Of a stretch of DNA of 64,000 bases, positions 3,333 through 11,717 are shown piece by piece. The notes under the pieces were generated by a model. It ran no database searches, was not told where the DNA came from, and was given only the letters and a program-made list of their open reading frames with translations. Numbering within the stretch: position 1 is the first letter of the stretch; the number at the start of each line of letters is the position of its first letter. Origin of the DNA: Pseudofabraea citricarpa (taxonomy: Eukaryota > Ascomycota > Leotiomycetes > Helotiales > Dermateaceae); contig JAPWGK010000015.1 of assembly GCA_029641185.1 (NCBI GenBank), positions 558,001 through 622,000 of the forward strand, written 5' to 3'. The translations under genes and the position numbers were made by a program.

Positions 3333-5519
3333 TTAGTAGTCACTGCTGTACTGAGGTTTCAAAGGTCGTACGAGTTGGTTCAAAAGGGTATCAAGGTCGG
3401 TCCAGTTCTCAAGCTTATCAGCGAACTTTCGATGTTTGCGTGAGAGCACATGCTGTATTATGTTAGTCGTGCACCTATATTAACCTTAGCTGGGTAACTT
3501 ACCTCGTCAAAGTCATCAAATTTATCCTGGCAATTTTCGCAATATCCAGGCTTGGGGTCACGCTTCTCAGCTCTTCTCTTTTGTACTGCCTTTGCTTTAC
3601 GAGCGGCCTCAACTCTTCTTGCTTGTTCTTCAATCTCCGAGGGGTTGAGGTCCTCATCAATAAATCCGAGCTGTTCTTGAGCCTTTCGCCGGGAAGGTCG
3701 TGCAGTTTGCTCATTGGCAGTAGTACTAACATCTGTCATGCGGTGAGAGCTCAGTAAGCCATAAGAAGCTGGGCCTCCGCTGTTCTTCTCGAGAACTTTC
3801 CTTTGCAATCCATGGACTTCTTTGCTAGTTCCTGCCTTAGCACCTGGTTGAGCTGCTGTCGAAGATATCATTTGAGACCTGATCGCTGAAGTGATGTTTG
3901 AAGCCTGTAATCCAGAGGCAAGCGGTTCACCACCAAGGAAACGCCCAGCTCCTGCTCTGCTGACGAAAGCATTTTGTGAGCCTTTCGAGGAAGACACTGA
4001 ATCCACTTGCGGAGGATATGCACGAGGTCCATCAAAGGGCTGGTTTTGTTTAGATGGGACGGAAGCAGTTCTGTTGGATACTGCGCCAGTCTCAGCAAGC
4101 ACGCGCTGGCCGTTGGCAATCTTTGGCGGTTGCATTGCGGCAGCAACTGCAGCAGCAGCACGGGTTCTTGGGACTCCAGCATTTTCTCTTCCTTGCTGTT
4201 GTCTTTGTTGCCGCGTGTTTTCCCTTTCTTGGTCACGTCTGCTATAGTCGACCTCTTCTACAAATGGGCATTTGCCGTTTGCGACACTACGGAACTGTGG
4301 CCAATCACCATCCTCTTTATGAGCTACCTTTGCATATTCCCGAAGCATGATGGGTTTTTGTTTTTCGTCGATATCGTGAATGTATATGAACGGTCCTTTG
4401 AATAGGCTCAATTCTTTTGTCGCTACTGTAGGATCCCGATCAGACGGTCCATTAATTCGCTCGTTTCGGAGAAGTTGGGATAAGTCGGCCTCTCTGGTTG
4501 CTCGAGGAATCGCTGCCATCCCGTGCACCGCGTTACTTCTCGTATTATGCCCATGGGACATTTGGGTATCATCATCAAACATAGTAGCCATCATCCGTTG
4601 CAGCTTCTCGAGTGACCATATCTTCATCCCAAGCTCTCGCGCCCGATGAAGTACATCAGCACTTCGTCCTTGAGACCTCTTCGCTTCACCTCCATTTGCA
4701 TGAGGCGCCAGCCTCCGGTTCATAGGCACATCGAAGGTAAACCTCCCCTTTGGCCCAAATGGATCGGACTGGGATGTGGACTCCGAGGATCGATCCAGCA
4801 GTGAAGGATTAATGGTTTGAGGCTGGCTGACGTGTGAACTTTGCGAGTCATTATTAGTTGAGGAAGTAGCTTCTACTGATCGAACTTCTACTTCCGGAGG
4901 GATTGCACGCGTTGTCACAACATGTGTTACCTCGTTTGAGAAGAACTTTGCTTCGCGCTGTGACATAGTTAGGACTGGTATTGCTGAATGAAGATATGAC
5001 GTCGGAGATACTTACAGCACCCAGCGCAAGAACCTGCTTTGTGTATCTCACACGAGCATCTTCTGAAATACTCTCAAAATAAAAAACATATTGCGGAAAG
5101 ACCTTGCGGTGATGTCGCTGCCAATTCCTTATCTGCTGCAGCTGCTCTTCCTGTGACTTCTCTACTCGTGTAACCAACTGCTGGGGCTTCTGGCTGACGG
5201 CAGCCAGTTTACGGTCGAAGGTTGAAAGCGGTGCGTTTGACTTGCGTGTAAAGACTCGCCCTTCAGTAGATTGACTGCTTTGGCGGGGGGGTGTTCTTAA
5301 GACGTGGGATTCGAGCATTTGCTTCTTCGAGGGTGGTTGCTGTCCATAGGCCTCTTCTCTCTGTATCGTGGCATACGACCGTTTTTGCTTAGAGGCAGCG
5401 GCCGCAGCCACGGCGCGGTATGGTGAATTGATAGCATTTGGATTGTTTGACAAAGGCGCCCTCCGACTTGACATGGTCGACAGAGTAGGTGGCAAGGGTG
5501 ATAGAGATACTGCTGCCAT
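3333..5519 (-). CDS. DBF4: Dbf4-type regulatory subunit of the Cdc7 kinase (DDK)
   Basis: This is the activating subunit of Cdc7 kinase, which phosphorylates the MCM helicase to fire replication origins in the nucleus. I read three exons: 5519-5016, 4957-3503 and 3452-3333, giving 692 residues. A BRCT-like motif N spans roughly residues 130-290 (including KFFSNEVTHVVTTR just after intron 1 and GMKIWSLEKL). Motif M lies at about 356-405 (GPFIYIHDIDEKQKPIMLRE). The diagnostic C-terminal DBF zinc finger is C641-x2-C644 ... H654-x5-H660. Intron 2 (50 nt) falls exactly between the Cys pair and the His pair, so the finger is complete only after splicing. The family (yeast Dbf4, S. pombe Dfp1, Aspergillus NimO) is known; the assignment is by motifs. 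The gene is divergent from ICP55. Confidence 0.94.
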
Positions 5520-8529: not shown

Positions 8530-9576
8530 TCAGTTGCACCTTTCTCCAATAGCCCAAGCAAAGTCTTCTAATTCCTCTTTTGGAATTGGATATGTATGTT
8601 CTGGTGCAGGATACTCACGGCTCTTCACTTCAGTCCGGTATGTCGATATGGCTTTATGTGCTTCACTCCAGACATCACCATATTTCTTGACAAATTTTGG
8701 AAGGAAACGTCCAGGAGGGAAATTTCCCGTCATGTCAACCTGGACCAGCACTTGGCCTGAGCAAGCATTGCCAGCACCAATACCGATCGTTGGAACAGAG
8801 AGCTTCTCTGTGATCAATGCTGCGACCTCTTGTGGTACCGCTTCCATTACCATTCCAAAGCAGCCGGCTTCTTGAACGGCCAGAGCATCTTCGAGTACCT
8901 TCATCGCAGAAGCAGAAGTCTTTCCTTGTACTCTGAAGCCACCCAAAGAATTCTGTCGCTGTGGTGTAAGACCTATATGTCCCAAAACGGGGATACCAGC
9001 AGTTGTGATTTTTTTGATGGTTGCAGCCATTTCTTTTCCACCCTCGAGTTTGACAGCTTGGACACGTCCTTCTTTTATGACTCGGATCGCGGATTGGAGG
9101 GCTTGTTCGGGCGAGACTTCGTAGGAGCCCATGGGTAAATCACCGACCTGGAGGAAGAGCTGTCAGAACCTCGGCTTCGATGTGGGGCATGGAGGGGTAT
9201 TTACAGTGAAAGCAGTTTTTGCTGCCCGCGAGACGGAGCGACAATGAAGCAACATTTCTTCCAAAAGTACCTCACTTGTGTCTTCCATGCCCAGTGCTAC
9301 CATGGCCAGACTGTCTCCTACCAGAACCATGTCCATGCCAGCGGCATCACCAACATGACCACTGGGGAAATCATGGGCGGTGATAACGGTTATTGGCTCG
9401 CCCTTCTTATACATGGATCTCAGAGTGCCAATGGTGACCTTCTTCCTCGAGCTGGTGGTGGCGGGTCCCATGGGGGAGTGCGAGCTCCGTCTGTTCTGAC
9501 ATTGCAGCAATAAAGGCCGAGCAGCAAAGGAAGCTGGTCGTGTGAAGCGAGAGTAAGTCTTTAAGAAGGTAGACAT
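8530..9576 (-). CDS. panB: ketopantoate hydroxymethyltransferase (mitochondrial)
   Basis: Transfers a hydroxymethyl group from methylene-tetrahydrofolate to alpha-ketoisovalerate, the first committed step of pantothenate (vitamin B5) and CoA synthesis; the yeast gene is ECM31. Exons are 9576-9205 and 9147-8530, giving 329 residues. A basic, Ser/Arg-rich N-terminus (about residues 1-45) suggests mitochondrial import. Family motifs are plain: ITAHDFPSGHVGDAAGMD, MVLVGDSLAMVALG, HCRSVSRAA, VKLEGG, PVLGHIGLTPQ, MVMEAVP, TIGIGAG and GQVLVQVDM. An in-frame ATG at 9705 would give 43 extra residues; I prefer 9576 because it begins the presequence-like segment. Confidence 0.95.
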
Positions 9577-10712: not shown

Positions 10713-11717
10713 ATGTCTTCCCCTCGACGCAGAATCGAGACTGATGTGAGTACAATAGTCATTCCAGTGATCGCAAGCACAAGGACTGACATGGCTTCTC
10801 TTTCCTCTTGAAGGTCATGAAGTAAGTTCTGCCATACTCACAGCCTAGCTGTTTCTTGTATAAACTTACTAATGTTTTTTGCAGAATGTATGCGACACAC
10901 GGCTAGCCACTTTAGCTATTTGCGATTTATACTTATGATATTACAGGCTCATGAGCGACTATGAAGTCACTCTCGTAAACGACAACAGTATGTTCTGCCT
11001 ATTCTGCGTCCTATGAGCTAATCTTAACCTCCAAATAGTGTATATATTCCCTGTCGACGACCGTACATCCCGACTTACAAAGAGTAAAGGCAGGAGTTTT
11101 ATGTCCGATTCAAGGGACCAGAAGAGAGTCAGTTTTATTCTCTGCAGAGACAACGAGTGTCGCTGATAGGAGTGTAGCGCCATTCCAGGGTGGTCTTTGG
11201 AAAGTCCATGTCGAACTCCCCGATCAATACCCATACAAATCACCAAGCATCGGCTTTGTCAACCGCATCTTCCACCCTAATATCGATGAGTTGTACGTCC
11301 TATCATGGTATGGAAAGAGGGTGGGCTCTAATAGGGTGTTAGGTCCGGTTCAGTCTGTCTCGATGTCATCAACCAAACTTGGTCCCCCATGTTTGATATG
11401 ATCAACATCTTCGAAGTCTTCCTCCCTCAACTTCTACGATATCCCAACCCTACCGATCCTTTGAATGGTGAGGCTGCCGCTTTGCTCATGCGTGAGCCCA
11501 AGAGTTACGATGCCAAGGTTAAAGGTGGGCTGTTTTCTTTTTTCTTCGCATAATATATCACGTACTAACCGGTTCAGAATATGTTAGCAAATATGCCAGC
11601 AAGGAGGCTGCCGACGAAGCCGGAGCTGAATCTGAATCAGATTCTGATATGTCTTCAGTCGGTAGTTTTGGTGATGACGACGACCAGGAGCCAGCAGGAC
11701 AGATGGAGGAAGTCTGA
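10713..11717 (+). CDS. UBC8: ubiquitin-conjugating enzyme E2 Ubc8 (GID/CTLH pathway)
   Basis: The E2 that works with the GID/CTLH ligase to degrade gluconeogenic enzymes (yeast Gid3; human UBE2H). I read nine exons: 10713-10745, 10814-10821, 10885-10887, 10947-10987, 11039-11039, 11090-11127, 11178-11292, 11343-11524 and 11578-11717, giving 186 residues. The UBC fold is complete, with the HPN motif (FHPNID) and catalytic Cys85 ([13 protein letters not shown]), followed by an acidic tail with Ser/Asp clusters as in Ubc8. Two exons are tiny: AAT (10885-10887) and a single T (11039). They are required to give K14-M15-L16-M17-S18-D19 and N28-M29-Q30-E31-F32, which match the spacing of yeast Ubc8 (KLLMSD, NDSMQEF). 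Skipping the 3-nt exon loses one residue but keeps frame; skipping the 1-nt exon breaks the frame. Confidence 0.95.
10885..10887 (+). other. UBC8: 3-nt microexon of UBC8
   Basis: The exon AAT lies between acceptor TTTTGCAG and donor GTATGC. It supplies the last base of Lys14 and the first two of Met15. The flanking introns are 63 and 59 nt with branch-like TACTAAT and CTTATGAT. Direct splicing of exon 2 to exon 4 is also in frame, but it would delete one residue conserved in length across Ubc8 proteins. Confidence 0.8.
11039..11039 (+). other. UBC8: 1-nt microexon of UBC8
   Basis: A single T lies between acceptor CCAAATAG (ending 11038) and donor GTATAT (starting 11040). It forms the middle base of the ATG for Met29 (A from exon 4, T, G from exon 6). 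Introns on both sides are 51 and 50 nt. I found no other GT-AG pairing in this interval that restores the frame into QEFYVRF. Confidence 0.8.

Follow-up and report, generated by a model that had tools for sequence, protein, structure and literature searches.

The stretch analysed here, which we call the window, comprises 64,000 nucleotides from Pseudofabraea citricarpa, whose genome assembly holds 44 Mb in 43 contigs. Its plus strand carries, at 10,713–11,717, a gene for the ubiquitin-conjugating enzyme (E2) UBC8, which very probably contains an exon of a single nucleotide. Nine exons, two more of which measure eight nucleotides or fewer, join to an open frame for a protein of 186 amino acids (561 nt with the TGA stop codon; Table 1). 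The neighboring gene on the minus strand, at 8530–9132, is panB, for 3-methyl-2-oxobutanoate hydroxymethyltransferase (PF02548, E = 2e-73); the partial protein scores 207.2 bits against TIGR00222, whose cut-off is 207.55. An Rfam scan of the window revealed no structured RNA at the gathering cut-off.

Table 1 Predicted exons and introns of UBC8 in the window. Sums are scores under the intron model described in the text.
Feature	Position	Strand	Length	Remarks
Exon 1	10713..10745	+	33 nt	Start ATG
Intron 1	10746..10813	+	68 nt	GTGAGT..AAG
Exon 2	10814..10821	+	8 nt	Letters GTCATGAA
Intron 2	10822..10884	+	63 nt	GTAAGT..CAG
Exon 3	10885..10887	+	3 nt	Microexon AAT; yields VMK-M-LMSD, matching P0002
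Intron 3	10888..10946	+	59 nt	GTATGC..CAG
Exon 4	10947..10987	+	41 nt	Terminus AACGACAACA; A of Met29 codon at 10987
Intron 4	10988..11038	+	51 nt	GTATGT..AATAG; branch-point-like GCTAATC (A at 11021); sum 7.89
Exon 5 (very probable)	11039..11039	+	1 nt	Single T, middle base of Met29 codon; from the DNA, path scores and relatives
Intron 5	11040..11089	+	50 nt	GTATAT..TAAAG; weak branch-point-like ACTTACA (A at 11077); sum 2.45
Exon 6	11090..11127	+	38 nt	Begins GCAGGAG, G being the last base of Met29 (G-CAG-GAG-TTT)
Intron 6	11128..11177	+	50 nt	GTCAGT..TAG
Exon 7	11178..11292	+	115 nt
Intron 7	11293..11342	+	50 nt	GTACGT..TAG
Exon 8	11343..11524	+	182 nt	VCLDV with Cys85
Intron 8	11525..11577	+	53 nt	GTGGGC..CAG
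Exon 9	11578..11717	+	140 nt	Stop TGA at 11715-11717

By its sequence the gene is UBC8, of the UBE2H type. The best PDB matches of the product are 8pmq_E (yeast Ubc8; 1–176 aligned, E = 7.2e-69), 8pjn and 2z5d (E2 H). The homolog P0002, a protein of 186 amino acids from a JGI contig of 928 nt, is 95% identical to it, and PF00179 was found in this homolog. Among the best matches listed, the top-ranked fungal ones from named genomes belong to Helotiales, for example Drepanopeziza (93%). The genome holds one UBC8 locus; its remaining E2 matches are 25–40% identical, the next best being 31–40%. The predicted protein retains the VCLDV motif with Cys85, which we take to be the catalytic cysteine.

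Around position 11,039 the sequence reads AATAG-T-GTATAT, so that exactly one nucleotide separates the AG of a 3′ splice site from the GT of a 5′ splice site. An earlier note on this DNA had proposed two full introns of 51 and 50 nt with a single T between them, and both its coordinates and its lengths are exact. The codon for Met29 in the motif NDNMQEF is thereby split across three exons, as A, T and G. Both introns are of normal size, as the median in a sample of 35 introns of this genome is 55 nt (quartiles 51–67.5). Were the interval 10,988–11,089 excised as one intron, the skipping of the T would shift the frame, as had been claimed, and the computed product of 98 amino acids lacks Cys85. 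The computed products of skipping the T or retaining either intron end after 37, 98 or 115 residues, none of them with the Cys85 region. The asserted fit to yeast Ubc8 when the T is included is borne out by an alignment to chain E of 8pmq, which runs through the junction (ND-SMQEF) without a gap. Human UBE2H is one residue shorter at this junction and has L in place of M, which suggests that the loop tolerates change over large evolutionary distances. Met29 is identical in all of a chosen set of 18 homologs.

Splice sites were scored with a mixture model seeded with a generic fungal consensus; the intron model rests on 35 confident introns from 264 kb plus eight short loci of the genome, with the UBC8 locus left out. 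The paths scored, 12 in all, contain one or two introns, preserve the downstream frame and stay within set length limits. The path with the one-nucleotide exon ranks first with 10.3, and the runner-up reaches 3.8. Of all eight UBC8 introns, intron 5 scores lowest. When the interval was shuffled with its dinucleotides preserved, an AG-N-GT of the quality observed came up in 2 of 5000 cases, and any AG-N-GT that leaves an intron of 43 nt or more on either side in 156 of 5000. An equally good AG-N-GT was found in none of 432 other 102-nt stretches of the plus strand beginning with GTRNGT. Across 264 kb (the window plus 200 kb, both strands) there are 1585 AGNGT sites, of which six pass the two-intron score with open flanks; coding-like flanks as well are found at two of the six, the UBC8 site being one. 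The other was rejected because a one-nucleotide exon there leads to a stop codon and skipping it keeps the frame open, and so this genome sample of 1585 sites yielded no second one-nucleotide exon. The rejected site lies at about 3794–3928 of locus L021 (C1:2023794–2023928), in a gene with a metallopeptidase-like HELAH motif recognized by eye. The idea that intron 5 arose as a copy of intron 4 was likewise discarded, as their interiors are no closer to each other than shuffled ones (score −5, reached by 1327 of 2000).

The same junction was followed in 243 distinct homologs, a non-random set formed as the union of the best 120 from each of three protein searches (more than 5,600 matches each). 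It comprises 141 gene models from named Pezizomycotina, 42 proteins of other named fungi, 57 proteins from short contigs and three plant-labelled records, which were left out; class labels were given from organism names by recall, with six checked. The three plant-labelled UBC8-like records (P0219, P0001 and P0048; Anthurium, Quercus and Pyrus) comprise two with MQE and one with LNE; the Anthurium record, which matches 85% of the Saitoella query at 90% identity, may stem from fungal contamination. Nearly all of the 57 short-contig proteins come from contigs of about 1–3 kb, one being on a contig of 7.3 kb and one having no listed contig; as these contigs are short and their frame is uninterrupted, the sequences are most likely cDNA. 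Of the 55 that could be compared, 47 have their closest model among Pezizomycotina rather than among other fungi. Junctions were recognized by regular expressions of our own, and the patterns for the other five junctions match 50–57 of the 57 short-contig proteins and 38–41 of the 42 other fungi.

At the junction of the one-nucleotide exon, M[QS]E is present in all 57 short-contig proteins, P0002 among them, in all 42 proteins of other fungi and in 16 of the 141 models from named Pezizomycotina; the remaining 125 depart from expectation. The same 141 models are as expected at the first junction in 126 cases, and at the three downstream junctions in 134, 138 and 138. By class, the expected junction is seen in 0 of 10 Leotiomycetes, 8 of 44 Sordariomycetes, 3 of 23 Dothideomycetes, 2 of 56 Eurotiomycetes, 0 of 3 Pezizomycetes and 3 of 5 others. 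By search batch it is seen in 13 of the 71 named Pezizomycotina from the first search, 3 of the 68 that were added by the second, for which the query had the junction in its K form, and neither of the 2 new in the third. Among the 16 models with the expected junction, some may represent lineages that lost an intron, or annotation from RNA. The 3-nt exon seems also to be common to relatives and often missed: its junction is as expected in 47 of the 141 models and departs in 94, and in 39 of the 141 the exon is skipped in frame (VMK-LMSD, one residue fewer).

Many of the errors in the models of relatives look like those of a gene finder that fails to place an exon of one nucleotide. The start NDN-M-Y/F of 19 models is expected if A-T-GTNY is read on into intron 5. 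In all six models that retain at least 100 nt, back-translation holds one AG-T-GTNNG at a fitting place, which splits the retained stretch into 47/52, 49/56 or 56/67 nt. Five of these read-through models are from Fusarium (three species; non-independent) and one is from Aspergillus niger; T alone was tested as the base between AG and GT, and with shuffled residues such a site is expected in 1.2–8.6% per model (24–172 of 2000). Another eight models, with S...RQE, are shorter and give no information, and 52 are other mixtures. We could not derive from the two-intron structure the NDN-K-FYV of 18 of the 141 models, which come from three classes, nor the NDN-RQE of five. The former are P0038, P0039, P0071, P0072, P0073, P0075, P0077, P0093, P0120, P0121, P0124, P0125, P0137, P0138, P0142, P0143, P0148 and P0156. 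As for the latter, one guess is that they might be models guided by transcripts, with the T misplaced onto an adjacent intronic G.

In four of the short-contig proteins, everything downstream of the junction matches a genome model at 100% identity (Morchella, Penicillium chrysogenum, Ilyonectria and Aspergillus fumigatiaffinis), and each of the four reads MQE where its model is wrong. Five more match Chaetomium or Colletotrichum models that already have MQE. DNA scans for related loci returned 11 stretches with the pattern from viral_contigs and 19 from genome_contigs, none of which encodes a relative. Taken from the proteins, the one-nucleotide exon is very probably not confined to the species of the window. 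Most Pezizomycotina classes, from Pezizomycetes through to Sordariomycetes, probably have the arrangement, which is likely to be conserved across the subphylum more widely than the earlier note knew; it would then probably be as old as Pezizomycotina. The proteins further suggest that most of the public gene models we examined get the exon wrong.

Two explanations dispense with the one-nucleotide exon. That inclusion of the T gives NDNMQEF is correct, yet it is not, as had been supposed, the sole frame-keeping route to MQEF, since a donor at 10,992 would define a single intron of 98 nt (10,992–11,089) and give NDN-S-MQEF, with one extra serine. This path keeps the frame with one splicing event, and 17 of the 141 Pezizomycotina models follow the matching path, with NDN-S-x-QE produced by the same four-base shift of the donor. 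However, the donor GTTCTG scores −7.0, the worst of the nine introns scored (the others range from 0.5 to 3.3), and the path as a whole scores −5.5, compared with 10.3 for the path through the single T. The extra residue is seen in 0 of the 57 short-contig homologs, and yeast Ubc8 has no insertion at the junction. In the 17 models the second inserted residue varies (K, M, T, E, G, R or Q), as if the donor had been read as codons. We regard the 98-nt intron as very unlikely. An error of assembly or sequencing, by which one exon base was lost and the interval is a single intron of 102 nt, would give the same picture in any one genome. But the junction is disturbed in the 125 departing models, which come from many laboratories, while the three downstream junctions are not; and the AG-T-GT that yields two good introns would have to be a coincidence of the kind met in those 2 of 5000 shuffles. 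Such an error is extremely unlikely. In contrast, an inherited coding exon of one nucleotide at 11,039, which completes Met29 once the two short introns are removed in turn, is in our judgment highly probable, and the earlier interpretation of a one-nucleotide exon in UBC8 stands as the best reading of the DNA, with strong backing from relatives.

In fungi, introns of some 50 nt are recognized across the intron, and the length of an exon carries little weight. Introns 4 and 5, short and complete, could each be recognized in this way and excised one after the other, whereby the T would stay between A (10,987) and G (11,090) and complete the codon for Met29. Because AG, T and GT are contiguous within five nucleotides, use of the 3′ site of intron 4 and use of the 5′ site of intron 5 should be mutually exclusive; as the two sites should not be occupied together, removal in sequence is the most likely course, and sequential splicing is plausible. 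The stronger intron 4 (7.9) would leave before intron 5 (2.5), with ACAT-GTATAT remaining as the donor of intron 5. Consecutive splicing is also what a stwintron needs, in which an internal intron interrupts the donor, the branch point or the acceptor of an external one, and stwintrons are known in Pezizomycotina. However, introns 4 and 5 are both complete as they stand, and the [D1,2] type requires a G before the internal donor, where the base is A. We see next to no chance that the structure is a stwintron.

Since the products of skipping or retention lack the Cys85 region, accurate inclusion of the T would appear to be needed for an active E2. Yeast Ubc8 acts in the glucose-induced degradation of gluconeogenic enzymes, which is why a switch by carbon source suggests itself. 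Inclusion of the exon could be limited to a fraction of the transcripts and serve to turn UBC8 on or off: skipping the T would lead to the frameshifted product, and the Xlr2 microexon of Trichoderma is described as responding to glucose (PMC11121469). Against this, the nucleotide is included in 57 of 57 short-contig homologs, although skipped mRNAs may be unstable and escape a protein search. We consider such a switch unlikely. It is similarly doubtful, if conceivable, that the 1-nt and 3-nt exons have a single origin in the Pezizomycotina ancestor and were kept because two-step splicing provides a control point. If so, inclusion of the T would toggle between active UBC8 and an mRNA that is frameshifted and prone to decay, for example by carbon source.

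In the literature that we found, nuclear exons of one nucleotide are known from two plant genes and one Fusarium gene. The earlier note was right about their occurrence in plants; a restriction to plants no longer applies, as the exon of Fusarium CYP621A was reported in 2026 with RNA reads (PMC12940212). CYP621A and UBC8 have much in common: a nuclear gene of Pezizomycotina, one nucleotide between AG and GT with an intron on either side, the middle base of a codon in a conserved motif, and gene models that are nearly all wrong, with out-of-phase exons leading to the discovery (PMC12940212). They differ in that the exon of CYP621A is a G in a glycine codon, in a P450 described as being of unknown function and in one genus (PMC12940212), whereas that of UBC8 is a T in a methionine codon, adjoins a 3-nt exon, and belongs to a single-copy E2 with counterparts in yeast and human; it is probably subphylum-wide and is predicted here from the DNA and from the proteins of relatives. 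The plant genes are APC11 and VPS55, with one-nucleotide exons in land plants (PMC4674806; PMC8831610). They share with UBC8 a one-nucleotide exon between two introns that annotations missed, conserved in the plants and probably so in UBC8 (PMC4674806; PMC8831610), and APC11, like UBC8, is a gene of the ubiquitin system (PMC4674806). The plant exons were tested by reporter constructs, RT-PCR or RNA-seq (PMC4674806; PMC8831610), and for VPS55 there are isoforms or copies that lack the microexon (PMC8831610); for UBC8, in contrast, the introns are about 50 nt and splicing is read from sequence.

Two further fungal systems bear comparison. Stwintrons consist of neighboring introns that are removed in consecutive reactions, as those of UBC8 probably would be, and like them are hard for automatic annotation; they differ in that a splice element of one intron is broken up by its neighbor (PMC5639578). 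Xlr2 of Trichoderma virens, like UBC8, has a microexon in a filamentous fungus, but its inclusion is differential with glucose supply, unlike anything seen for UBC8 (PMC11121469). The UBC8 exon is absent from the titles and abstracts on UBC8 or ubiquitin-conjugating microexons that we searched, a scope outside which lie most subscription journals and all of bioRxiv. The placozoan mitochondrial cox1 is reportedly a related case (PMC5436844).

The exon of UBC8 is a natural substrate for asking how the spliceosome copes with two splice sites packed into five nucleotides, and it raises the questions of the order of removal and of why so fragile a structure persists; in this single-copy gene of the ubiquitin system it has apparently survived across a whole fungal subphylum. 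The practical side concerns annotation, which departs from the expected sequence at this one nucleotide in roughly nine of every ten named Pezizomycotina models in our set.
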